A DNA stretch of 32,107 nt from Rikenellaceae bacterium (lineage in GTDB: Bacteria; Bacteroidota; Bacteroidia; Bacteroidales; Rikenellaceae), in assembly GCA_030529085.1 (NCBI GenBank), contig JAUMXM010000024.1:1-32107 (forward strand), in the 5' to 3' direction. The notes beneath the pieces were generated by a model. That model was not told where the DNA came from. It saw nothing but the letters and a program-made list of their open reading frames with translations, and did not search any database. This document shows, piece by piece, positions 55-10,704 of the stretch (position 1 is its first letter; each line of letters starts with the position of its first letter). The position numbers and the translations under genes are program-made.

Positions 55-84
55 GAGCCGGATTGAATCAATCCGGCTCTTTTT
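55..84 (+). terminator. Rho-independent terminator
   Basis: A perfect 10-bp stem, GAGCCGGATT paired with AATCCGGCTC, encloses a 5-nt loop and is followed by five T. It ends the gene that stops at 27. Read on the minus strand the hairpin has only a weak T tract, but it could also stop transcripts of the phage cassette, whose last gene ends at 90. Confidence 0.9.
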
Positions 85-89
85 GTGTC

Positions 90-494
90 TTATCCTCTTG
101 TGAAGAGCACCCACCCCGCCTGCAGCGCCTTCTCGTCGGCCGCCACGCCATTCTCGACCCACGAAATGGCGGCCGCCAGGGGCACCATATCCTCCTTGCG
201 CCCGGTGTCGAGCACCTGGTCGGGGGCAAATCCCGTGCGCGCGCAAACAGCACAAATATAGTTCTCGGTGTGGTTTTCGCTCGGGGGCGCCCAGCGCGTA
301 ATCACTTCGCGCGGGGTGCGAAGCCCATACTTTCGCCAATAGGTGTTGAGCAGGACAAAGATGGCCCGATAGCCCCAGGCGAGCGACGAGAACTGCTTGA
401 AGGCGGGGTCGCGCGAGGGGCGCACCTCGCCCTGAAAGCGCGTGGCCGAGCGGCGGATGTTGCCCGGGTTGCAGTTCGAAAGTCCCCTACTCAT
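90..494 (-). CDS. Phage-type lysozyme / lytic transglycosylase-like protein
   Basis: A 134-aa protein without a signal peptide. It carries the pattern NPGNIRRS (residues 9-16) followed by a region with conserved tryptophans (WGYRAIF, TRWAPP). This arrangement is typical of a family in Bacteroidota prophages often labelled structural protein P5 or lysozyme-like, thought to cut peptidoglycan. It directly follows the holin gene. The holin stop and this start overlap in the string GATGAGTAG, so translation is probably coupled, and holin plus endolysin would form a lysis module. The family assignment rests on motif memory. The catalytic residue cannot be named from the sequence alone. Confidence 0.72.
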   Translation of the reverse strand: MSRGLSNCNPGNIRRSATRFQGEVRPSRDPAFKQFSSLAWGYRAIFVLLNTYWRKYGLRTPREVITRWAPPSENHTENYICAVCARTGFAPDQVLDTGRKEDMVPLAAAISWVENGVAADEKALQAGWVLFTRG

Positions 495-912
495 CGCCTA
501 TCTCCTGCTTCAGACGACGATGCACAAAGCGGCGCAACCATTGAAAGAGGGGTGCATCGGAGAGCTGGGCGGCATTTTCGAGGAAGGACCAGAGCTCCAC
601 GCCGCAGATAAAGCCTGCAAACATGCGCGCCAGGCGCAGGTGCAGAAAATCCAACACGCAGGCATCGATAAGCCACGCCATAGCCAGCGAAACAACCACC
701 AAACCAGCTTTTCGAATCGTCTGCCACGCCTTGCCACTCTCGAAATACCAGTCACGCCCCGTGCGCTTGGCCTCGGTGTAGTCGGCCGCCACCCCCGAGA
801 GGAAGTCGATGGTGATGAAGAGCAGGGCGCAGAGGATCATCGGAGCTGCGGGGGCAAAGAGCCCCATCAGGGCCAAAAGGGCCCCGCTAACGAATTTGTA
901 CAAAGCCTCCAT
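487..912 (-). CDS. Phage holin-family membrane protein
   Basis: A 141-aa protein. The start at the ATG at 910-912 is preferred, because the longer frame upstream is only the antisense-like shadow of the neighbouring gene. Hydrophobic segments lie at about residues 7-22, 24-43 and 68-90, and the C-terminal third is amphipathic and arginine-rich. Length, early transmembrane segments and position next to a lysozyme-like gene fit the Bacteroidota phage holin family, which permeabilises the inner membrane so the endolysin can reach the wall. The start overlaps the upstream connector-like gene by 26 nt, an overlap typical of compact phage gene order. Confidence 0.75.
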   Translation of the reverse strand: MEALYKFVSGALLALMGLFAPAAPMILCALLFITIDFLSGVAADYTEAKRTGRDWYFESGKAWQTIRKAGLVVVSLAMAWLIDACVLDFLHLRLARMFAGFICGVELWSFLENAAQLSDAPLFQWLRRFVHRRLKQEIGDE

Positions 913-1360
913 CGGTCGTGCAGCGCATAAAAAGGTTCTCGTCGGGGGTGTATTCGGGGTAGTCGGCAGCCGCCCCGTCGAGGTGAGAGGTGGCGCGTCG
1001 CAAGAGGGTGTTCGCTTCGCGGCGCAAGCCCCTTTGCAGGCTACGCAGGGAGCCTTCGTCGGCAGCCGTGCCGCAGTCGCTCTTGGGGGCGAGGTGGCCG
1101 ATGGGCGAGGTGTGGAGCGCTGTGCGGGGAAGGGCCACAACGCGCGCATAGAGGGCAAGCGGAGTCGCAAGGTAGTCGGACAAGAGGGTTGGATAGCTTC
1201 CGGCACGGATCGCCGCCAACAGCTCACCGCCCAAGCAGGGCTTCAGGTAGCGCTCCTCGGCCGTCACGAGGTCGGCCTCGGTGAGCGTATCGAGGGGGAG
1301 GCGTTCGCTGCTGCGAAAGGCCAGACGCAACGCCTCGGTGGGGGTAATAAGGGGTTTCAT
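887..1360 (-). CDS. Head-tail connector-like protein (DUF6712-like)
   Basis: A 157-aa, mostly helical protein that begins MKPLITPTEALRLAF and has a central TEADLVTAEERYLKPCLG stretch. This style of N-terminus (a position-indexed helical adaptor) and its place just after the portal gene match small head-completion or connector proteins of Bacteroidota phages, which I recall as the DUF6712 group. It starts 4 nt after the portal stop. The role, joining capsid and tail, is inferred from position and fold character. The exact family needs a profile search. Confidence 0.55.
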   Translation of the reverse strand: MKPLITPTEALRLAFRSSERLPLDTLTEADLVTAEERYLKPCLGGELLAAIRAGSYPTLLSDYLATPLALYARVVALPRTALHTSPIGHLAPKSDCGTAADEGSLRSLQRGLRREANTLLRRATSHLDGAAADYPEYTPDENLFMRCTTDGGFVQIR

Positions 1361-1364
1361 ACGG

Positions 1365-2588
1365 TTAGTCGATGCTTTTCAGGTTGTACTTCGTGATCTC
1401 GGAGAGGAACTGCTGCTGGCGTTCATCCTCGGGGTCGTACTCCAGGCCGTCGGCCTTACGCGCCTCCCACACCTTCATGTAGATCGGTTTGGAGCGCGTC
1501 GGAGGTCGATTGACGATCTCGAGCGACGAGCAGTCGTAGCCCAACACGCGGTGGATCAACCCGCGAATCGGCTCGGTGAGCTCGGCCTGCTCGCTCAGAA
1601 TCACCGTATTGAGAGCCACCTCATACTCTTGGAGAATACGCTCCGAGCTGAATCCCGAGGCGTAGTCCAAGCCGCTGAGCGAACGGAACCAGGAGTGGGC
1701 CACGACGATATCGGAGGTAGCCTGCGCGTGGAGCGACTGCCAATCGCCCTCGTTCTGTGCCTCAATGGGGATGAAGCGCGAATGGTCATCCTCGCTCCCC
1801 TCGCGCAAAACGAACATCACCTGTCCGGGGTTACCGGCAAACTTCTCCTCGGCCAATCGCACGATGCGCTCCGCCTCAGCCTCGTTGTCGACCGACGAGT
1901 CGAGCATCATCACACCCGAGAGCTGAAACGAGTTGTCGAGACGCGCAATGTTCCAGCGGTCGGTCTTATAGGCGATGGCCGAGACGTTGAGTCCCGCGAT
2001 GTAGGCCGGCACGCCATAGTGCGAAAACATCGGCTCATAATCCTTGTAATGGATCATGGCTCGCAGCGTGCCATCGTGCTGCTCCTCGAAGCGGGGATAG
2101 AGGGGCAAGGACAACGCCTCGGCGGGTTTGAATTGGCTCCAATCGTGGTGCAGGAGCACATGCTCGCCATCGCGCGCCAGACGGCAACGCGAGGCATCCT
2201 GGTGGTAGAGCGAGAGGAAGGAGTTATCGGCGTCGGTTACCACCTCCAGGAAGGCGTTGCCGAAGAGAGCCTTGTCGAAGGCCAGCCTGTGGAGCACCGT
2301 GCGCAGCGACTCGCCATCACCATTGACCGAGGCGATAAACGAGGCGAGGAGCGGCTCCCCCTCGTCGCAGACAAAGCCCTTGCCGGCGATGTAGTCAGCC
2401 TTGTCGTTGATGATGCGGCGGTGGGTCGTCGAGCGGCGCGCCATCAACGCCAGGGCCATCGGCCAGAGGTTATCCTCGCCCCACCGCCAGAAATGGCGAC
2501 TCTCGACCCGCGAAGCCCCTGCAACGTAGGGGTCGGCCTGGTTATTGATGGCCACCGCATGCATTTTTACACCCTTTTTTTGTTCCAT
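1365..2588 (-). CDS. Phage portal protein
   Basis: A 407-aa protein with the general pattern of HK97-like or PBSX-like portals. It has an N-terminal part that positions on the vertex (HFWRWGEDNLWPMAL), a segment on residency of helices (RRIINDKADYIAGKG), a long central alpha/beta region with paired tryptophans, and a C-terminal LSGLDYASGFSSERILQEYE element followed by a helical region. Portals form the 12-subunit ring through which DNA enters the capsid. An alternative start is the internal Met9. The gene follows the capsid gene after a 76-nt gap holding a strong hairpin. In most tailed phages the portal precedes the protease and capsid genes, so this order is unusual. Confidence 0.8.
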   Translation of the reverse strand: MEQKKGVKMHAVAINNQADPYVAGASRVESRHFWRWGEDNLWPMALALMARRSTTHRRIINDKADYIAGKGFVCDEGEPLLASFIASVNGDGESLRTVLHRLAFDKALFGNAFLEVVTDADNSFLSLYHQDASRCRLARDGEHVLLHHDWSQFKPAEALSLPLYPRFEEQHDGTLRAMIHYKDYEPMFSHYGVPAYIAGLNVSAIAYKTDRWNIARLDNSFQLSGVMMLDSSVDNEAEAERIVRLAEEKFAGNPGQVMFVLREGSEDDHSRFIPIEAQNEGDWQSLHAQATSDIVVAHSWFRSLSGLDYASGFSSERILQEYEVALNTVILSEQAELTEPIRGLIHRVLGYDCSSLEIVNRPPTRSKPIYMKVWEARKADGLEYDPEDERQQQFLSEITKYNLKSID

Positions 2589-2626
2589 AAAGTTAGGTTG
2601 TTAAGTGTGAAACATGGTTCGTTAGC

Positions 2627-2658
2627 GTGGTGTCGCGAAGTCACCCCCGCGACACCAC
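2627..2658 (-). promoter_or_regulatory. 11-bp GC-rich hairpin between capsid and portal genes
   Basis: GTGGTGTCGCG pairs perfectly with CGCGACACCAC across a 10-nt loop, just after the capsid stop. No T tract follows on either strand, so it is not a normal intrinsic terminator. An mRNA processing or 3'-end stabilising element that raises capsid relative to portal expression is the likeliest role (inference). Confidence 0.6.
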
Positions 2659-2664
2659 ATACCA

Positions 2665-3642
2665 CTACGAACGGTAGGCGTAGGAGAGCATATTCTCGTC
2701 GAGAATCTCACAGCCGGCCATAAAGAGGGCGCGCTGACGATTCTCCATCTCGTCGGGGTTGTACCACATGCGCACCTCGTTACCCGGGATGTCGGCCGTA
2801 TTGACCGCCATGACCAGGTTGCGACGATCCGTGAGCAGTGCAAACGACTGATGGAGCGAGGTCTGCGCCAGCATATTCGTAATGCAGGGATCGACGATCG
2901 GAATGCCGTGGAATGCAAGCGACGAAACACCCTCGGTTGTGGCGCGGAACGAACTTTCGACACCCATCGAATCGAGATACTGCTCGTACAGGTCGCAGAT
3001 ATCCGACGTGCAGAAGAAGGCCAACTGACCCTCACCACGCATGCTCTTGAGCGCAGGGTCGGCCATATCCCACAACTTCTGCAGCACCGCTACGGCATGC
3101 TCCGGTGCAGTCATCTCGGCAGCGGCGTAGTTCGTGTAGTTGATCACATCGTCCGTCACAGCCTGGTTGATCGACGTGAGGAAACCGTTGAAGGTGTTGT
3201 AGCCCGTGTTGCGCGACGTATCGCCTAACCACATCGTCATACGCAGATTCTCGGCAATGGCCTGCTTGAAGAGCTCGGTCTCGGCCTGCTCGAGGATCGT
3301 ACCCGTCAGATCCTCCATGTTGATATCGGCGCGTGCCGAAATCTGCTCATAGACGAGCGAGAAGTAATCGGCTGCCGAGAAACCGAGCTCGGCCTTCACG
3401 CGCTCCATCGGGATCTGCTTCTGGTACTTGGTGGCAGCATCACCGCCCGTCCAGCCGTTGGTCGTAAACTTTTTCAGGACGTTGCGACTGCCGTCCCAAA
3501 GCTGCACGACGGTGGGTACAGGCATGTTGTAGAGGACGCGGATGCCCAACTCCTTAGCGCCATCGCCCGTCAAAATGGGACGGAAAAAGATCTTCTCAAC
3601 ATCGATACCGGTGTACTGCTTGGGTGATTCCAAATAATTCAT
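2665..3642 (-). CDS. Major capsid protein
   Basis: A 325-aa protein with the composition and layout of an HK97-fold capsid subunit. The N-terminus is MNYLESPKQYTGIDVEKIFF, the middle is rich in aromatic and Asn/Thr residues (GDTSRNTGYNTFNGFL), and a C-terminal part PGNEVRMWYNPDEMENRQRA resembles the P-domain end of Bacteroidota phage capsids. There is no obvious delta or scaffold domain, although a ClpP-like prohead protease is encoded 43 nt upstream. The reading frame is intact and codon use matches the surrounding genes. Confidence 0.8.
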   Translation of the reverse strand: MNYLESPKQYTGIDVEKIFFRPILTGDGAKELGIRVLYNMPVPTVVQLWDGSRNVLKKFTTNGWTGGDAATKYQKQIPMERVKAELGFSAADYFSLVYEQISARADINMEDLTGTILEQAETELFKQAIAENLRMTMWLGDTSRNTGYNTFNGFLTSINQAVTDDVINYTNYAAAEMTAPEHAVAVLQKLWDMADPALKSMRGEGQLAFFCTSDICDLYEQYLDSMGVESSFRATTEGVSSLAFHGIPIVDPCITNMLAQTSLHQSFALLTDRRNLVMAVNTADIPGNEVRMWYNPDEMENRQRALFMAGCEILDENMLSYAYRS

Positions 3643-3685
3643 AATCTGTTTAGTTTTAAGGTTTTTTTAATGAAATTGGTTAAGG

Positions 3686-4558
3686 TTAATAGTTGCGGAA
3701 CGCCTTGATATCACGGGCATAAGCGCGCTCGTTAGCCGAGATGACGCGCTCCGAGAAGGGGGGATCGTCCGTCGGATTCAATTGCGAGGCCGCGACCGCT
3801 TTTTGGGCCTCGTCGATCGCCTTCCGGCGTTGCTGTACCGAGCCCGCAGCATCAAAGTGGAATACATTGCGGGGCTCGGGCAGCGACTCCTCCTCGTGAA
3901 TCCCCACGGCGCGCGCCAACCGTTTGAGTCCGGCTGCGATATTCTCGACGAGCGTCGAAGATTGCTCGGCAACCGATCCGATGAGGCTGTCGGCCAGACC
4001 GGCCTCGATCGCCTCCTGGGGCGAGAGCCAACGACCCGAGCCGCCATTCTCGGCCATCAGGGCTTCGAACTGCTCCTTCGGGAGCCCCGAGCGGGTCGCA
4101 TAGAGGGCGCTGAGTCGCTCATCGGTGGTGCGCAGCAATGCCGCTTGTGCCTCCAGACCTTCGGCATTTCCCTCGGTCGAACAGGTGGCACGATGGATCA
4201 GGTAGAGGGCGTTGGGCGAGAGGAGACGACACCCCTCCGAGGCGGCCTGAGCAATGATCGTGGCGGCCGAGGCGGTGTAGCCGAAACAACGGGTCGTAAC
4301 ACGACCGGGGAGCTGACGCAGGGCATCGTGGATGAGCAGGGCATCGTTCACATCACCTCCCGTCGAACGAATCGTGACGATCACCTCCGAGGCCTCGACG
4401 GCAGCGATGCGGGCGACCGCTTCGCGAAATCGTTCGTAGGTCGCCACACGACTGTCGGGCTCCTCGAACTGCCACTCCTCGGGAACACCGATCGTCCCCT
4501 CGATTTCGATGTGACACACGCCGGCCTCGTTCTTGATTTTGATTTCTGGTTTTGTCAT
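3686..4558 (-). CDS. ClpP-like prohead (head maturation) protease
   Basis: A 290-aa protein with a ClpP/crotonase fold core. The strand-turn IRSTGGDVNDALLIHDAL (about residues 63-80) is followed by GYTASAATIIAQA with the nucleophile Ser97, then LYLIHRA with His122 and a probable acidic partner near Asp146. These match the Ser-His-Asp triad of S14 peptidases. The last 75 residues are charged and helical, and could act as scaffold. Such enzymes cleave capsid or scaffold proteins during procapsid maturation. Its start overlaps the end of the small upstream gene by 4 nt, and the capsid gene follows 43 nt downstream. No cytoplasmic ClpP partner (ClpX loop site) is suggested. Confidence 0.85.
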   Translation of the reverse strand: MTKPEIKIKNEAGVCHIEIEGTIGVPEEWQFEEPDSRVATYERFREAVARIAAVEASEVIVTIRSTGGDVNDALLIHDALRQLPGRVTTRCFGYTASAATIIAQAASEGCRLLSPNALYLIHRATCSTEGNAEGLEAQAALLRTTDERLSALYATRSGLPKEQFEALMAENGGSGRWLSPQEAIEAGLADSLIGSVAEQSSTLVENIAAGLKRLARAVGIHEEESLPEPRNVFHFDAAGSVQQRRKAIDEAQKAVAASQLNPTDDPPFSERVISANERAYARDIKAFRNY

Positions 4559-4830
4559 AGATAAGGTCTTGATTTAAGCTGTTTGTAGTAGATTGTGCGC
4601 ACCTTTTCGTAGGAGCAACAGAGCTGTTCGGCACTCCAGAGCATCGCCTCGCAGCTCTTCGCCCCCGCGCGTCGCTCTCGTTCGACCAGGCGGTAGATGG
4701 CCAACTCTTCACACGCCTTGCGATTGATCAGCCCCAGCTCCTCCAGGTGGTTAAGGGTGGCGGCATCGACCTCGCGAACAAGGGGCTCGAGAACAAGTTC
4801 GCGGACCAACTTTTCGAGGCGGGTCATCAT
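4555..4830 (-). CDS. Small helical protein of the phage cassette, unknown function
   Basis: A 91-aa charged protein predicted to be all-helical. The segment from residue 35 to 85, with INRKACEELAIYRLVERERR and a C-terminal YEKVRTIYYK, resembles helix-turn-helix-containing small proteins seen in Bacteroidota phages. The DNA-binding reading is weak. It overlaps both neighbours by 4 nt (stop and start shared), so it is translated with the tail and protease genes. It could be a small terminase-like, scaffold or regulatory factor. The sequence does not decide between them. Confidence 0.5.
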   Translation of the reverse strand: MMTRLEKLVRELVLEPLVREVDAATLNHLEELGLINRKACEELAIYRLVERERRAGAKSCEAMLWSAEQLCCSYEKVRTIYYKQLKSRPYL

Positions 4831-7196
4831 CGGTCCACACGGTCAAAGGTGCAACGAATCACCCCCTTCTCGGGGTCATAGGCTCCGATGCGACGCAACG
4901 TGGCTGTGCACTCGCCAAGTTCGGTGCGGAGTCGGAAGCGGCTGCAACGAGTTACCCCCTCCCCTTCGAGGCGCATCAGAAGGGCATATTCGGCCGGTGT
5001 GAGGCGCAGGGTCTGCTCCACAGAGCCACCCTCGACTCGGTTGCGCAGCGTAGCCTCGTGGTAGCGGTGAAGCCCCTCCACGCCGTCGCGATCGTCGAAA
5101 CAGAGCGTAACACCCTGCTGCTCCTCCTCGACCACCTCGGGCGGCAGATGGAAGATAGCCAGCGGATAGCTTCCGCCGTTCGAGGGGGCACCCCACCGCT
5201 CCCCGTCGGGCAGTGCCACCAAACCGCGGTAGGAGACAATGCGGGGCGAGAAGTTGGTGCCATCCTCCTCCAAGGAGTCGCGGTCGCCCACCTGCAACAG
5301 ACGCGCCGAAGGGGCATTGAGGTAGTGGCCCACGCTGCTCAGCGTCGCAGCAAAGAGGGGGTTGCGCCGCATTCGCTCCCCTTCGAGGGCTGCCGTGCTC
5401 TCCACCGCAAAGCTCCACGCCCCGAAGGTCGCCTCCTCGTCGGCCTCCAAGCGCGCCACAGCCCCCGTGCCCGCCTGATAACCCAGACTCTCCTGCTCGT
5501 GCAGCTCCCCCGAGCGATCGAGAAGTGTGGCCGCCGGATCGAGGATGCACTTCTCGCGCCAATCGACCTCCGACTCCTCTGCGTAGAGCATCTCCGCAGG
5601 GTCGATGCGCACCGTGCGACTCGCTTCGTCGGTCAAAAAGCGGAGATCGAAGAGGTGGGCAAGGGCCTCCAGCAGCTCGATGGGACGAATCGCATGTTGC
5701 GCAACCGTCCGAAAATCGAGCGGCGATCCATAGCCCGGTGTTGAGCAGAAATCGGGGGTGATCGAGCAACGCTTGTCGAGCGTGAGGCTCATCCCCTCCT
5801 CAGCCCCCTCGAAGAAGATGCGATCGAAATACTTCGGACTATCGGGTGTTACCAACTCGGCCGGAGAGCGGAAGCGCATCTCCACCTCGGTGTAGCCGCA
5901 CTCCTCGATATAGCCATTGTAGAGCGCCCAATCGCCTGCATAATCGACCCACAGGCCGTCAGCGCTCCAATACTGCAACTTCGGCTCCTCGCACACCCCC
6001 TTTTCGGCGGTCGTAACCAATGCCGTGCGGGTATCGAACACAGCCCAAAAGGTGTTGGAAACCCCGTCCAGCGTGTAGAGCAGACGATAACGCGTATCGA
6101 GGATGTGGTCGAAGACCACCACGCGGTATTGGTGGTAGGTGCGCAGCGAATCGCGCTGATCCTGATAGCGATTCGCCAGGGTCGCCTCCAACAAACCACA
6201 GCCGGGGATGTAGATCGTGTCGAAACCCGTAAGGCGCTCACGCGAGAGGATGCGATGGTCGGTGGTATACTTCAAGTAGTACTCGAAGCCTACCGAGACG
6301 CTCGAGAGTGGTCGGAAGAGGATGCGCCCCTCCTCCTCGGTAAAACAGTGGCCGCTGTTGTAGAGCATATCGACCACCTCGCCATCCTCATCGACAGCCA
6401 TCGGAGTGGCACTCTCGACCAGGTTACCCACCGTGTTGTAGAGGGCACTCGGATCGGCGTAGACACGCCCCATGTAGTCCGCCTCGGCCGTCACCGCCCC
6501 CAGGCGACGTGCCACGAACCCCATCTTGTTGCGCGCTGCGGTCGTATCGCGCGACGGATAGGCACCACTCATGTAGAGCGAACGGAAAAACTCCGTCGAG
6601 AATAGGCGGCTTTCGATGCTATAGCCCGCCTCGGTAAAGAGTTGCTCTACGAGGGTTGCAAGGTGAAGAAAGGGGTGGTAGTCGTCGACGGTCAGGATGC
6701 GCTCGGGGGTAAGCAGATCCGTACCGTTCGACTGTTGCGCATAGTCATCGCGGTGGATGGGAAAGAACTTCACGGGACTCTCGTCGGTCCAACTTTCGAG
6801 AATAGCTCGGGGCGTGAGACTCGACGTGTAGTCGATGTTGAGATGATTTAGGCGCATCAGTGCCGCGCGGTGTGCCCAATCGGTGCCACCCTCCTTGATG
6901 CGGAGCGTGTAGCCACGATCCGAGGCCTCAACCAGCACCACGCGCCCCTCGAAGAGGAGGATCTCGTCGCAGGCAAGGGTTGCCCTGTGGGACGAGGCGT
7001 TGAAACGGGTTGCCGATTCGGGGTCGCGCCCAAATCCCAGCAGGCGGTCGTTGAAGGGGGTCGCTGGGATTGTGATGGTCAGGGTGCGCCCCTCGCGCAG
7101 GGCGTTGGGGTCGGATGCCGTAGTGAGATCAAGGGCGGGGATCACTATCGACCTCTCGGCCAGATCGCAACGTTGCTGGTCAATTCTTAGCTCCAT
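4827..7196 (-). CDS. Large tail / baseplate-like structural protein
   Basis: The longest gene of the cassette, 789 aa. It is rich in beta-prone segments and aromatic residues, with no signal peptide or transmembrane segment. The N-terminal 120 residues (LTITIPATPFNDRLLGF, then an EGRVVLVEASDRGYTLRIK strand pair) have the character of a baseplate hub or tail-tip domain. The middle has YHPFLHLATLVEQLFTEAGY, a pattern I associate with tail-associated proteins of Bacteroidota prophages. It overlaps the preceding tail-like gene by 10 nt. Function is inferred from context. A receptor-binding or tail-tip hub is most plausible. Confidence 0.55.
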   Translation of the reverse strand: MELRIDQQRCDLAERSIVIPALDLTTASDPNALREGRTLTITIPATPFNDRLLGFGRDPESATRFNASSHRATLACDEILLFEGRVVLVEASDRGYTLRIKEGGTDWAHRAALMRLNHLNIDYTSSLTPRAILESWTDESPVKFFPIHRDDYAQQSNGTDLLTPERILTVDDYHPFLHLATLVEQLFTEAGYSIESRLFSTEFFRSLYMSGAYPSRDTTAARNKMGFVARRLGAVTAEADYMGRVYADPSALYNTVGNLVESATPMAVDEDGEVVDMLYNSGHCFTEEEGRILFRPLSSVSVGFEYYLKYTTDHRILSRERLTGFDTIYIPGCGLLEATLANRYQDQRDSLRTYHQYRVVVFDHILDTRYRLLYTLDGVSNTFWAVFDTRTALVTTAEKGVCEEPKLQYWSADGLWVDYAGDWALYNGYIEECGYTEVEMRFRSPAELVTPDSPKYFDRIFFEGAEEGMSLTLDKRCSITPDFCSTPGYGSPLDFRTVAQHAIRPIELLEALAHLFDLRFLTDEASRTVRIDPAEMLYAEESEVDWREKCILDPAATLLDRSGELHEQESLGYQAGTGAVARLEADEEATFGAWSFAVESTAALEGERMRRNPLFAATLSSVGHYLNAPSARLLQVGDRDSLEEDGTNFSPRIVSYRGLVALPDGERWGAPSNGGSYPLAIFHLPPEVVEEEQQGVTLCFDDRDGVEGLHRYHEATLRNRVEGGSVEQTLRLTPAEYALLMRLEGEGVTRCSRFRLRTELGECTATLRRIGAYDPEKGVIRCTFDRVDR

Positions 7197-8155
7197 AACA
7201 GGTCGTTTTTAAGGCGTGAACGCAGGGTGATTGTGAGCGAGCGCAGGGTGCCGTAGCGAGCAATCTCGGCCTCATCGGTGAGGATGTCGACCTCGGTATA
7301 AAGGCCCTCACGCAACAACCAAACATGCTCTGCGACAAGTATTTCGGCCAAGGCCTGCATCCACTCCTCGCCTTCGAGGGCCGAGGTGAGGATCAGCCGC
7401 TCCTCGCGCTCGAGGGAGGTGACCAGGTGCCCCTTGTCGCCATAGGCGCGATTTCGCTCGATGGTCTGTTCAACCCGCTCGACACGTGGGAAGGTGTAGT
7501 GCTCGAGCGATCCTCGGTGGCTCTGCCAGGTCAGGCGGCAACTCCCCTCGGGGGCAGGAAGGAACGTGTAGCGCAGCGTGCCGAGCGTTCCGGCGTCGAT
7601 GAGCAGCGTATCGGCTTCGGGATAATCGTCGGCCGCAACGCGGTAGCACCACAGGGCTGCCATGGGGAGCATCTGAACGGCATCGTGGATGGTACCGTCG
7701 CGGCGATACTCGACGATTTTGAGCGGATGGGGCGACGAGCCGACCAGAAAGCTCAGCTCATCCCACTCCCCGGGAGCGAGGAGTCGTTCGCGCGGCAGGG
7801 TGGTCAAGAGGGCAGGTTTTGCAGACTCCTCGTCTGCAGGGCGAAGAATCAACAACGGGCTCTGCACCCGCTCGTCGGGAGTCTCGGCCTCCAGGTAGAT
7901 GGCCAACTGGCGGTCGGCAGCCGACTCGATCCCCGAACTCGTTTCGGTCGGCAACTGAAAGTCGACCAATCCACGCAGATAGGGGGCGATTTCGAAGCTC
8001 GCTTCGGTGACATCGGTAAAGCGCTTTTGGCCCAAGAGGGTACCATCGCCATGAAAAATGCGAATCACCAGGGGCGAGGCGGTCACGTCGACCACCGAGC
8101 AGCGCAGCGAGGAGGCACAGGGTGCATGCTGTGCGGGTAGCAAATCAAAGGTCAT
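7187..8155 (-). CDS. Beta-rich phage structural protein, first gene of the cassette
   Basis: A 322-aa protein without signal or membrane segments. It starts MTFDLLPAQHAPCASSLRCS and contains repeated short strands such as VIRIFHGDGTLLGQKRF and ASFEIAPYLRGLVDFQL. The C-terminal EVDILTDEAEIARYGTLRSL suggests a partner interface with the next, overlapping protein. I do not recognise the family with certainty. Position at the head of the operon and linkage to the large tail-like protein suggest a distal tail or baseplate component. The start ATG lies about 216 nt downstream of the predicted transcription start, behind a structured leader. Confidence 0.5.
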   Translation of the reverse strand: MTFDLLPAQHAPCASSLRCSVVDVTASPLVIRIFHGDGTLLGQKRFTDVTEASFEIAPYLRGLVDFQLPTETSSGIESAADRQLAIYLEAETPDERVQSPLLILRPADEESAKPALLTTLPRERLLAPGEWDELSFLVGSSPHPLKIVEYRRDGTIHDAVQMLPMAALWCYRVAADDYPEADTLLIDAGTLGTLRYTFLPAPEGSCRLTWQSHRGSLEHYTFPRVERVEQTIERNRAYGDKGHLVTSLEREERLILTSALEGEEWMQALAEILVAEHVWLLREGLYTEVDILTDEAEIARYGTLRSLTITLRSRLKNDLLWS

Positions 8156-8241
8156 AATGGGGGTGTTTTAGGGGTAATAATGAACAGATGAGGGGGACTC
8201 TCCTTTGCGAAGAGGAGGTGGCACAAAGAGCCGGCAACAAC

Positions 8242-8361
8242 TGTTGATAACAGCGATGAAATCGTGTTGATAGATGTTGATAGGAGATGAAAACCTATCC
8301 GTAAAATAGTTGGAATCAGCCGCTTATAGATTGTTGAAAAGTGCGGCTCGAGGTGTTGATA
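8242..8361 (-). repeat. Four copies of TATCAACA in a hairpin-rich leader
   Basis: On the minus strand the octamer TATCAACA occurs at 8354-8361, 8275-8282, 8265-8272 and 8242-8249, with one degenerate copy at 8332-8339. Copies sit in or beside small inverted repeats: CGAGGT/ACCTCG (8349-8354 with 8364-8369), GATAGG/CCTATC (8279-8284 with 8294-8299) and CTGTT/AACAG (8241-8245 with 8249-8253). All lie downstream of the predicted start of the phage-cassette transcript, so they could be operators or RNA loop motifs. Confidence 0.65.
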
Positions 8362-8378
8362 GAACCTCGTTTGTGGTG

Positions 8379-8410
8379 CAAATATACAACCGGCAATACC
8401 CCCTTGTCAA
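8379..8410 (-). promoter_or_regulatory. Promoter of the phage-derived cassette
   Basis: Minus strand: TATATTTG at 8379-8386 fits the Bacteroidota -7 element, with TTGAC at 8406-8410 as the -33 element. The gap after TTG is 21 nt. Transcription would start near 8372, giving a leader of about 216 nt before the first gene. Confidence 0.75.
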
Positions 8411-8462
8411 CCCCTTTTTTCACTTTTTCCAAAAAAAATAGAAAAAAGTCCCGATTTTTGTT

Positions 8463-8790: not shown

Positions 8791-8804
8791 AGCGACCTTT
8801 GTCA

Positions 8805-9788
8805 ATGATTACCATCTACCTCAAGCAATACAACAAAATTATCCGCAACGCCGATACCCGCCTCTTCGATGAGTTGGGCTACGATGATATTCTCTGGATC
8901 GACATGATGCAGCCCTCGATCAAGGAGCAGCGCGCCGTCGAGAACTTCATCGAGATCAACCTCCAGTCGCGCCAACAGGTCGAAGAGATCGAGTCCACCT
9001 CGAAGTACTCCGAGAACGAGAATGCCATCATCTCGAACTCCAACTTCTTCATCCCCACGGGCGATTCGTTCCTCATCGAGCCGGTCTCGTTCATCATCTC
9101 GAACGAGGGTGTCCTGGTTTCGGTGCGTAATGCCGAGTCGCGCACCTTCCGCGAGACGGAGAAGCGCCTCCAGATGAACTACCGCAACTACGCCACGGGC
9201 TACCACCTCTTCATCTCGCTTTTGGAGGTGCGCATCGACTTCGATGCCGACCTCGTGGAGCTGGTTGCCAAGCAGGTTGCCACCCTCTCGAAGGATATCA
9301 CCTCGGAGGATTCGATCGACAAGGAGATTCTGCACCGCATCAGCGCCCTGCAGGAGAGCACGATGTCGCTGCGCGAGAATATCTTCGACCGCCAGCGTGT
9401 CCTCTCGGGCATCTTGCGCTCGGAGCGCTTCCCGAACGATATCTACCCCCGTCTGCAACTGATGATCAAGGACGTTAACTCGCTGATCAGCCACGCCGAC
9501 TTCTCGACCCAGCGTCTGGACTACATCCAGGATGCTGCCCTGGGTCTTATCAACATCGAGCAGAACGAGATCGTCAAGATCTTCTCGGTGGTAACGGTGA
9601 TCTTCATGCCCGCCACGCTCATCGCCTCAATGTATGGCATGAACTTCAAGTTTATGCCCGAGCTCGACTGGCAATTCACCTTTGCCAATGGCTTTGTGTT
9701 GCCGCTCGGCTACCTCTTTGCCATCTGCCTGATGATCCTCTGTTCGGGCCTTACGATCTGGTATTTCAAATACAAGAAATGGTTGTAA
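8805..9788 (+). CDS. corA: CorA-family magnesium/cobalt transporter
   Basis: A 327-aa inner-membrane channel for Mg2+ (Co2+, Ni2+). The signature YGMN is at residues 277-280, at the end of the first of two C-terminal transmembrane helices (about 254-276 and 297-320). The periplasmic loop after it reads FKFMPELDW, and the protein ends in a basic tail YFKYKKWL. The N-terminal 250 residues form the cytoplasmic alpha/beta and long-helix funnel. The ATG at 8805 is preferred over a TTG two codons upstream. The gene stands alone behind a structured RNA region and ends at a bidirectional terminator. Assignment is firm, ion preference is not. Confidence 0.93.
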   Translation: MITIYLKQYNKIIRNADTRLFDELGYDDILWIDMMQPSIKEQRAVENFIEINLQSRQQVEEIESTSKYSENENAIISNSNFFIPTGDSFLIEPVSFIISNEGVLVSVRNAESRTFRETEKRLQMNYRNYATGYHLFISLLEVRIDFDADLVELVAKQVATLSKDITSEDSIDKEILHRISALQESTMSLRENIFDRQRVLSGILRSERFPNDIYPRLQLMIKDVNSLISHADFSTQRLDYIQDAALGLINIEQNEIVKIFSVVTVIFMPATLIASMYGMNFKFMPELDWQFTFANGFVLPLGYLFAICLMILCSGLTIWYFKYKKWL

Positions 9789-9857: not shown

Positions 9858-10559
9858 CTACAAGCCGTTCGAAAGCGTCTCGGCCGACTTTAGGCGCACA
9901 ACAATTGCGCCGTTTCCGCCTCGCACACCATACATCGCGGCATCCTTCATCACAATCACATAGGCTACCTGGACAAGCTGGATGTGGTCGATCGACTTCA
10001 CCTCCACCTCATCGACAATAAAGAGGGGGGCGCTATTCTCGTGGTAGGCGGCTCCGCGAATCGAGACCTGCATGGCACCCGTTTCGAAATCCTCGGTCAC
10101 GGTCACCCCGGGAATCATTCCCGAGAGGGCCGAGAGGATATCGGTACAGCCCGTTGCCATCAGCTCCTCGCCCGTGATGCGGCTGTTGTAGCCCACATAC
10201 TCGCGACGACCGACATAACTCATGCCGTAATCGAGCAGCGACTGCGACTCCTCGCTCTCGACGCTCCCCTTGTTGATGATGCGAATCTTCATGCTGCGCT
10301 TGCCGGCAACGGGGATCAGATAATCCTGCTTGTCATAGCGGATATGGAGCGTATCGTCCGCCTCGACATTTGTCAAACCAAAACGTCCCTTACGATCCGT
10401 CTGGGCATACTTCTCGGGGTCGCTCACATAGATTCTTGCGTTGCGCAGGGGCTTATCGGCCCCATCGAGCAGCAAGCCGTTGAAGGGGCGCGGCGACTGT
10501 TGTGCAAAACCAGCGAATGCGATGCACAACCAAGCACAAAGAATAAAAACAGCTCTCAT
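9858..10559 (-). CDS. Plug-only TonB-receptor-like protein with carboxypeptidase-regulatory-like domain
   Basis: A 233-aa exported protein. The ATG at 10557-10559 is chosen because it gives a clear signal peptide (MRAVFILCAWLCIAFAGFAQ). Residues 27-75 form a carboxypeptidase-D regulatory-like beta-sandwich (PLRNARIYVSDPEK and following). Residues 135-225 match the plug domain of SusC-type receptors (ILSALSGMIPGVTV, SIRGAAYHENSAPLFIVDEV, and the closing GVRGGNGAIVVRLK). The 22-strand barrel that normally follows is absent, and the gene ends cleanly at a terminator, so this is not a visible truncation. It may act as a periplasmic or outer-membrane partner of TonB or of another receptor (inference). 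Confidence 0.82.
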   Translation of the reverse strand: MRAVFILCAWLCIAFAGFAQQSPRPFNGLLLDGADKPLRNARIYVSDPEKYAQTDRKGRFGLTNVEADDTLHIRYDKQDYLIPVAGKRSMKIRIINKGSVESEESQSLLDYGMSYVGRREYVGYNSRITGEELMATGCTDILSALSGMIPGVTVTEDFETGAMQVSIRGAAYHENSAPLFIVDEVEVKSIDHIQLVQVAYVIVMKDAAMYGVRGGNGAIVVRLKSAETLSNGL

Positions 10560-10577
10560 AGTCACATCTATTTTTTG

Positions 10578-10609
10578 CGAAATTATACAAAATCTACGAA
10601 AAAAGCAAA
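10578..10609 (-). promoter_or_regulatory. Promoter of the plug-domain gene
   Basis: Minus strand: TAATTTCG at 10578-10585 as -7 element (one mismatch to TAnnTTTG) and TTTG at 10606-10609 as -33 element, 20 nt apart. The leader would be short, about 10 nt. Confidence 0.6.
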
Positions 10610-10704
10610 AAAATATCGTCTGCAGTCCGAACCCCGATTGGTCAAAAATCATCCGAAGAGCACCTTTTTTTCACCTTAGAGGGCGGTTGGTCCAAGATTT
10701 TATC

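Follow-up and report, generated by a model that had tools for sequence, protein, structure and literature searches.

A two-locus, phage-derived gene set of Rikenellaceae as a candidate gene-transfer-agent-like particle

A block of nine genes at one end of an Alistipes-like genome contig is read here, with a probability of about 0.66, as the structural and lysis locus of an inherited, phage-derived DNA-packaging particle of Rikenellaceae, similar to gene transfer agents (GTAs) and known from its genes alone. The same joint reading includes a second, usually distant locus, which contributes the motor (the large terminase, TerL), a protein of ~95 aa and a divergently transcribed repressor of the CI/LexA type. 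The window, i.e., the whole stretch of DNA that was analysed, is 32,107 bases long and makes up the entire contig C30 of G000, a MAG of 1.9 Mb in 74 contigs that is 85% complete.

The nine-gene block and its products

Reading of the open frames in the window bore out the original prediction of nine intact minus-strand genes at positions 90-8155. Their order along transcription is g322, g789, g91, head maturation protease, major capsid protein, portal, DUF6712 protein, holin and endolysin. The block and its borders, with profile matches, are as follows:

8799..9788, plus strand: corA, host gene at the right border (PF01544, 2.8e-50)
8156..8412, minus strand: promoter-like TTGACAA - spacer - TATATTTG and a leader of ~200 nt with same-strand TTATYAACA repeats
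7187..8155, minus strand: g322, first gene of the block, 322 aa, putative adsorption/tail-tip protein (from position only)
4827..7196, minus strand: g789, 789 aa, putative tail hub/adsorption protein (from position only)
4555..4830, minus strand: g91, small conserved protein, 91 aa, found in 41 of 55 loci with full flanks
3686..4558, minus strand: head maturation protease of the ClpP type with a conserved C-terminal tail (Pfam PF00574, 1.9e-27; PHROG phrog_94, 9e-38)
2665..3642, minus strand: major capsid protein, MCP (profiles phrog_1623 and phrog_212)
1365..2588, minus strand: portal protein (phrog_11226, 1e-21; PF04860, 1e-9, slightly below its cut-off)
887..1360, minus strand: DUF6712 protein at the place of a head connector (PF20459, 2e-8)
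487..900, minus strand: holin (PF05105, 5.8e-11)
90..494, minus strand: endolysin-like protein (phrog_873, 1.6e-41)
55..79, strand not given: intrinsic-terminator-like stem between the lysin gene and a convergent host gene

As can be seen, each of the products originally named as prohead protease, major capsid protein, portal, holin and endolysin has profile support. Ser97 and His122 of the protease are invariant in 91/91 sequences with letters at these positions (95 aligned, some genomes twice). In two loci (L048 of G158, and L275), the protease gene is cut to an 88-aa frame in which the conserved C-terminal tail alone is left, as if a scaffold part were perhaps all that is still needed. The window copy of the capsid matches phrog_1623 at 7e-6; the same profile matches 13 of 15 members of the capsid family (best 2.8e-10), and phrog_212, “major head protein”, matches three of the 15. 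The endolysin domain matches, more weakly (6e-9), a tape-measure family. The protein that had been called a connector is present as the DUF6712 protein, but the connector label comes from position only. The tail- or baseplate-like label given to the 322-aa and 789-aa proteins found no backing, since neither has a useful Pfam, PHROG or PDB match; PDB profile searches with MCP, g789, g322 and a tube-like protein of relatives (see below) likewise returned nothing convincing.

No terminase, integrase or repressor match above cut-off was found among the nine block proteins, the lone integrase-like match (PF13102, on the capsid) falling below its cut-off. Thus, the original prediction that all three are lacking stands for the block but not for the genome, which carries a terminase and a phage-type repressor at another locus. 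No integrase or replication gene was detected above cut-off among 12 proteins of the window genome (nine from the block and three from the terminase locus).

Of the two predicted borders, the right one, at corA, was recovered as described. At the left one, the contig stops 89 bases past the lysin stop codon: the terminator (an 11-bp stem) and the tail of a convergent plus-strand gene are there, but this gene is represented by its last 27 bases because the contig ends. The encoded C-terminus resembles that of the convergent gene past lysin in the three close relatives compared. GC3 of the block genes (0.70-0.81) may be set beside that of corA (0.85) and of the next plus-strand gene (0.77), and an Rfam scan of the window gave no match. 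Positions 9858-10652 of the window encode a stand-alone 264-aa protein that we take, by eye, to consist of a carboxypeptidase-like domain and a TonB plug without a barrel; a similar short protein lies upstream of the block in six loci.

Occurrence, inheritance and selection

Of 151 genomes of the genus, 144 carry a capsid match (as do 59 of the 61 good ones); 139 of the 144 have a single match and the other five have two. The matches are 41-75% identical to the window's capsid, the window itself and two short second matches excepted, and none in the genus contains a stop codon. When 200 genomes of the family were drawn, 181 were positive (105/109 good ones), and they represented 17 of 22 genera; one of the family matches listed (G155) is interrupted by an in-frame stop. 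From the order, 247 genomes were drawn, and eight of them had a capsid match, three of these being Rikenellaceae. The five matches in the remaining 244 genomes comprised four weak ones and a strong but partial one at a contig end (G395, 2e-39). The latter piece, in a genome of another family (L116, G395:C33), consists of the protease and the N-terminal part of the capsid, and is either contamination or the result of transfer. The best 80 of 239 capsid relatives have titles that name Alistipes, Rikenellaceae or Bacteroidales, and the isolates Alistipes muris DSM 112343, A. montrealensis kh20, Alistipes sp. An66 and Marseille-P5061 are among them.

Among these best 80 loci and the window, 42 have the complete set of nine genes in unchanged order, many others being cut by contig ends. 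In 39 of 60 loci, a corA homologue precedes the block at a distance of no more than 4.5 kb. In the 55 loci with full flanks (window counted), the portal was found in 55, g322, capsid and DUF6712 protein in 54 each, g789 in 53, protease in 52, lysin in 47, holin in 45 and g91 in 41.

TerL, scored as present at E of at most 1e-60, was detected in 179 of the same 200 family genomes (105/109 good ones). Capsid and terminase were both present in 173 genomes and both absent from 13, a class partly swollen by incomplete assemblies, while eight genomes had the capsid only and six the terminase only (Fisher p = 5e-11; one terminase-negative genome is assumed to be G243, which is missing from the list of positives). 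The corresponding numbers for good genomes are 103, 2, 2 and 2 (p = 0.006). Both loci are lacking in genera g10 (2/2 genomes), g12 (4/4), g2 (1/1) and g22 (1/1); G109, at 99% completeness, is positive for the terminase and negative for the capsid.

Protein distances were compared with those of one host marker, TsaD, in 30 genomes by the Mantel test. The correlation was 0.85 for TerL, 0.82 for portal and 0.63 for MCP; within the genus (19 genomes), the values were 0.79, 0.72 and 0.84, respectively (p = 1e-4 throughout). Since tsaD adjoins TerL in several genomes, the TsaD-TerL pair is not fully independent; this adjacency may raise the TerL value and leave those of portal and capsid unaffected. 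TerL and portal distances correlate with each other at 0.82, and the lowest correlation, 0.50, is that between capsid and TerL (0.83 within the genus).

All nine block genes are under purifying selection. In 30 close pairs, which were picked by portal identity and are non-independent, median dN/dS was 0.077 for the portal, 0.14 for protease, 0.18 for holin, 0.21 for capsid, 0.22 for lysin, 0.24 for both g91 and g789, 0.26 for the DUF6712 protein and 0.35 for g322, and the highest value of any pair was 0.58. The portal is thus the most constrained gene of the block and g322 the fastest evolving one. The original prediction had named variably broken relatives with dN/dS near 1 as evidence against it, and the capsid and portal values are far from this. 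The block is a trait of the family and not a stray prophage.

The terminase-repressor locus

Terminases were also searched for with Terminase_6N in 24 chosen genomes. Matches were found in 23, one in each except G127 (four) and G014 (two), and G197, the genome without a match, was positive in the 200-genome TerL search. Terminases of the PF03354 family are present in four of the 24. In 19 of the 22 genomes in which places could be compared (G176 was left out), TerL is on a contig other than that of the capsid or at least 66 kb away from it; it adjoins the protease in G163 and is ~10 kb from the capsid in G186 and 20 kb in G204.

In the window genome, TerL is on contig C37 (L093:8676-9923), its sequence being broken by a run of N from the assembly. 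A terminase elsewhere, in a longer prophage interrupted by the assembly, had been expected to speak against the original prediction. A terminase does exist elsewhere, but the outer neighbours of its locus are host genes, with tsaD at one end and KduI-like and dehydrogenase genes at the opposite end, so it is not inside a prophage. A divergent phage-type repressor flanks TerL in 17 of 18 orthologous loci, and a gene of ~95 aa precedes TerL in 15 of the 18, the repressor lying on the opposite side. The repressor of the window genome combines an HTH_3 with a Peptidase_S24 domain, and its G023 counterpart gives matches to phage repressor families.

The active sites of the terminase are intact: Walker A, the Walker B aspartates and the acidic residues of the nuclease are invariant (30/30 and 28/28 sequences with letters at these positions). 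Beside TerL of the window genome, no gene was recognisable as a small terminase; a TerS-like protein at the terminase locus of G158 matches a small-terminase profile of 319 positions only from position 200 to 260. A second terminase of the same family (47%) is found at another genomic site in G127 (L095, G127:C1:664157-665527); no block genes are present within 19 kb of it, and it may perhaps belong to a separate prophage.

Two genomes of the family carry the two loci in a linked or nearly linked state. In G163, repressor, TerL, protease, MCP, portal and DUF6712 protein genes form a single row; g322, g789, holin and lysin had no match in the stretches read. In G186, the repressor, the ~95-aa gene and TerL are followed, after ~4 kb of other frames (one of which looks by eye like RNase HII), by the block, all on a single strand, and in its genus-mate G169 the two loci are on different contigs. 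Since the loci are linked in G163 and ~4 kb apart in G186, they can be derived from one ancestral phage, whose parts probably drifted apart.

The block itself also varies. In other genera and in parts of Alistipes, an extra protein of 170 aa is encoded between capsid and portal and an extra protein of 138 aa upstream of g322. Their profiles retrieved near-identical sets of loci (32 and 28, some genomes twice). The 170-aa protein is presumably tail-tube-like, a label that follows a sequence pattern and has no database match behind it. This tube-like family was found in 9 of 25 genomes overall, and not in the window genome or in 13 of 19 other genomes of the genus. The one tape-measure family searched, PF20155, was present in 5 of 25 genomes and not found in the window genome. 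Because neither family was found there, the window version seems to be reduced to a head with its portal and connector, the lysis genes and the two proteins that have no assignment.

Regulatory sequences were considered at both loci. A promoter-like pattern is present no more than 700 bases upstream of g322 in 50 of 66 loci, a count that carries no background rate. In 27 aligned leaders (the window and 26 relatives, picked for a promoter-like pattern near the gene), TTATYAACA occurs on the gene strand 37 times exactly and 97 times with up to one mismatch, against 0 exact and 7 near matches on the other strand and shuffle means of 0.3 and 5.6. The leader is otherwise poorly conserved around these repeats, whose spacings are often near multiples of 10-11 bases by eye. 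The repeat is one base off the DnaA-box consensus. Exact tandem pairs 0-4 bases apart were not found in 12 genomes, so the leader repeats are mostly inexact. An exact copy of the palindrome TTCAANNNTTGAA, a putative repressor operator, lies between the repressor and TerL genes at 5 of 18 terminase loci, whereas upstream of the block it is present in one of 66 loci. A repressor operator shared by the two loci was looked for in these 18 and 66 loci and not found, and with such counts joint control of the loci stays a proposal.

In 19 of the 57 loci that have lysin and enough sequence (23 of 75 with looser clustering), comEC lies downstream of the block on the same strand. Its start is no more than 345 bases from the lysin end and overlaps it once (e.g., L041:3832-5847, L136, L148, L175), and the gap is 34 bases in eight of the 19. 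The ComEC domain (PF03772) was confirmed by Pfam in four genomic or scaffold copies. Lysin and comEC may be transcribed together, as one unit for both release and uptake. In the window, comEC is missing from the place past lysin.

What the element may be

No free phage with the block capsid was found in 50,697 phage records or in the scanned viral contigs. The capsid and g789 match a single record, MT838736, and the portal matches MT838736, MT838805 and also, at 24%, a single Escherichia phage that is entered twice. MT838736 and MT838805 (L272, L273) are unannotated “Bacteriophage sp.” scaffolds from human faeces sampled in Mexico. MT838736 is a virome scaffold of block genes, and MT838805 spans the portal to lysin and then runs into host comEC. 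They may come from the VLP study PMC8361208, although the accessible text of that paper gives no accession link to them; if so, their DNA came from a particle fraction, though it may be contamination. The two scaffolds offer a lead to packaged DNA. Reads of a flow-sorted gut virome, among which Alistipes is one of the commonest genera of the unassembled part (PMC4568480, as far as its accessible text goes), are equally ambiguous between particle DNA and contamination. Two pattern-seeded scans of 2.9 million viral contigs retrieved eight with the capsid. Their lengths do not exceed 12.9 kb, and the longest starts within a gene resembling host RNase HII.

The nearest named phage terminases are those of Bacteroides fragilis phages such as B40-8 (46-47% over 99% of TerL). 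B40-8 differs from the block in being a phage of 45 kb that has a tape measure and replication genes, and block profiles found no other block gene in it. Comparisons of the MCP, g789, g322 and tube-like families with one B40-8 protein each were also negative, the single-sequence B40-8 side making them weak.

A GTA-like particle suits these data best, ahead of prophage, satellite, shell and relic, since most of the family retains the genes for motor, portal, capsid, protease and lysis, though they are usually unlinked. Phage-derived head, portal and packaging genes, near-universal single copies inherited vertically in the clade (by one host marker), purifying selection on the structural genes and the lack of integrase or replication genes alongside are what one can expect of a GTA. 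Upon DNA damage, the S24-type repressor would be inactivated through RecA. Heads would then be built, and loaded with fragments of the producer's own chromosome, by terminase, capsid, protease, portal and connector. Lysis of the producer would fall to holin and endolysin, adsorption to the 322-aa and 789-aa proteins, and recipients would take up the DNA. A delivery route was not recognised, since the tube-like family and PF20155 were not found in the window genome. Fourteen of the 200 genomes, which have only one of the two loci, count against the GTA-like reading. In the accessible text of a faecal VLP study, Rikenellaceae are abundant in total DNA and absent among the named packagers (PMC12946183), which is mild evidence against constant high production.

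The lack of tube-like and tape-measure matches in the window genome and in many relatives, together with the fast evolution of g322, as expected of an adsorption or competition protein, would also agree with a domesticated particle that serves some role other than gene exchange, either a killing or signalling particle released by lysis or heads that package DNA without delivering it. We consider this unlikely: the active sites of terminase, portal and protease are intact in step with the capsid, and such sites would be needless for a DNA-free device. Repeated re-infection of the family by an ordinary temperate prophage or a phage-dependent satellite is distinctly improbable, even though TerL is related to the terminases of B. 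fragilis siphophages, G163 has a contiguous version and G127 a further terminase of the same family. The element is nearly always single copy, often near corA and congruent with a host gene; no integrase above cut-off was seen among the 12 proteins scanned, and no free phage with this capsid was found in the phage records and viral contigs searched, which gave MT838736 and eight short fragments. No integration module was seen in these proteins and no variable occupancy among the genomes, in a comparison made above the level of strains within a species. Integrase or replication genes of its own, such as a PICI-like satellite would have, were also not seen among the block proteins, and the genome carries a conserved terminase elsewhere. 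The latter finding disfavours both a terminase-borrowing satellite and a plain protein cargo shell, which the original prediction had entertained next to the domesticated, GTA-like particle; it is this last suggestion that near-universal single copies, dN/dS well below 1 and host-gene congruence support.

Slow decay of a functionless remnant of an ancient prophage might explain the genera that lack both loci, the stop codon in G155, the loss of the protease domain in G158 and the missing tail-like genes in part of the family. It is even less probable, given median dN/dS of 0.08-0.35 for the nine genes, a maximum of 0.58 for any pair, invariant active sites and stop-free capsid matches throughout the genus. 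A phage-type capsid in a compact gene row is also what one would expect of an encapsulin-like shell for protein cargo, but such a shell does without portal and terminase, and here no block gene is better conserved than the portal, and the terminase co-occurs; we regard this as scarcely credible. A tailocin (tail genes and no capsid) is disfavoured by the presence of capsid, portal and protease.

The GTA-like element has a counterpart in FpGTA of Faecalibacterium prausnitzii, which PMC12946183 calls the first GTA found in the human gut microbiome; the word Alistipes is absent from the main text of that paper. The comparison is by description in the accessible text, not by gene-by-gene homology. 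Both belong to gut commensals and have phage-derived heads and two separate operons or loci, one with lysis genes, and no tail was seen in FpGTA. The FpGTA TerS, which has no obvious DNA-binding domain, may be compared with the TerS-like protein of G158. In contrast to the Alistipes element, FpGTA belongs to another phylum and has capsid and terminase in a shared operon, whereas the Alistipes genes are usually at different loci, with a divergent S24-type repressor at the terminase, and span most genera of a family. With alphaproteobacterial GTAs such as RcGTA, the element shares mostly vertical inheritance, long-term preservation and a link to ComEC, which acts in uptake of RcGTA-delivered DNA according to the accessible text of PMC10883770. 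RcGTA, too, is from another phylum, and comEC is a gene neighbour in some Rikenellaceae genomes. Particles and packaged DNA have been shown for FpGTA, whereas the Alistipes particle, and any transfer by it, is predicted from genes. Judged by title and the opening of the abstract, none of the papers listed by full-text searches, in a collection that lacks most subscription papers and preprints, describes this system. The element is easily overlooked because the terminase is usually not beside the capsid.

A further-reaching version of the GTA-like reading, plausible to us though less than an even bet, is that of an ancient, family-wide GTA of Bacteroidota that is induced by DNA damage via its own CI/LexA-type repressor, was split in two loci, shed tail genes in some members of the family and was joined by comEC in part of Alistipes. 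If true, genes for DNA release and DNA uptake would stand in one transcription unit in part of Alistipes. Linked, nearly linked and split versions all occur in the family, and the tube-like gene, the protease domain and the TerS-like gene are each present in some versions and missing from others; this range makes the paring down of a phage testable. GTAs have been described from few lineages, and an element kept by nearly all examined Rikenellaceae would keep a path for gene exchange permanently open among bacteria that are common in the gut.
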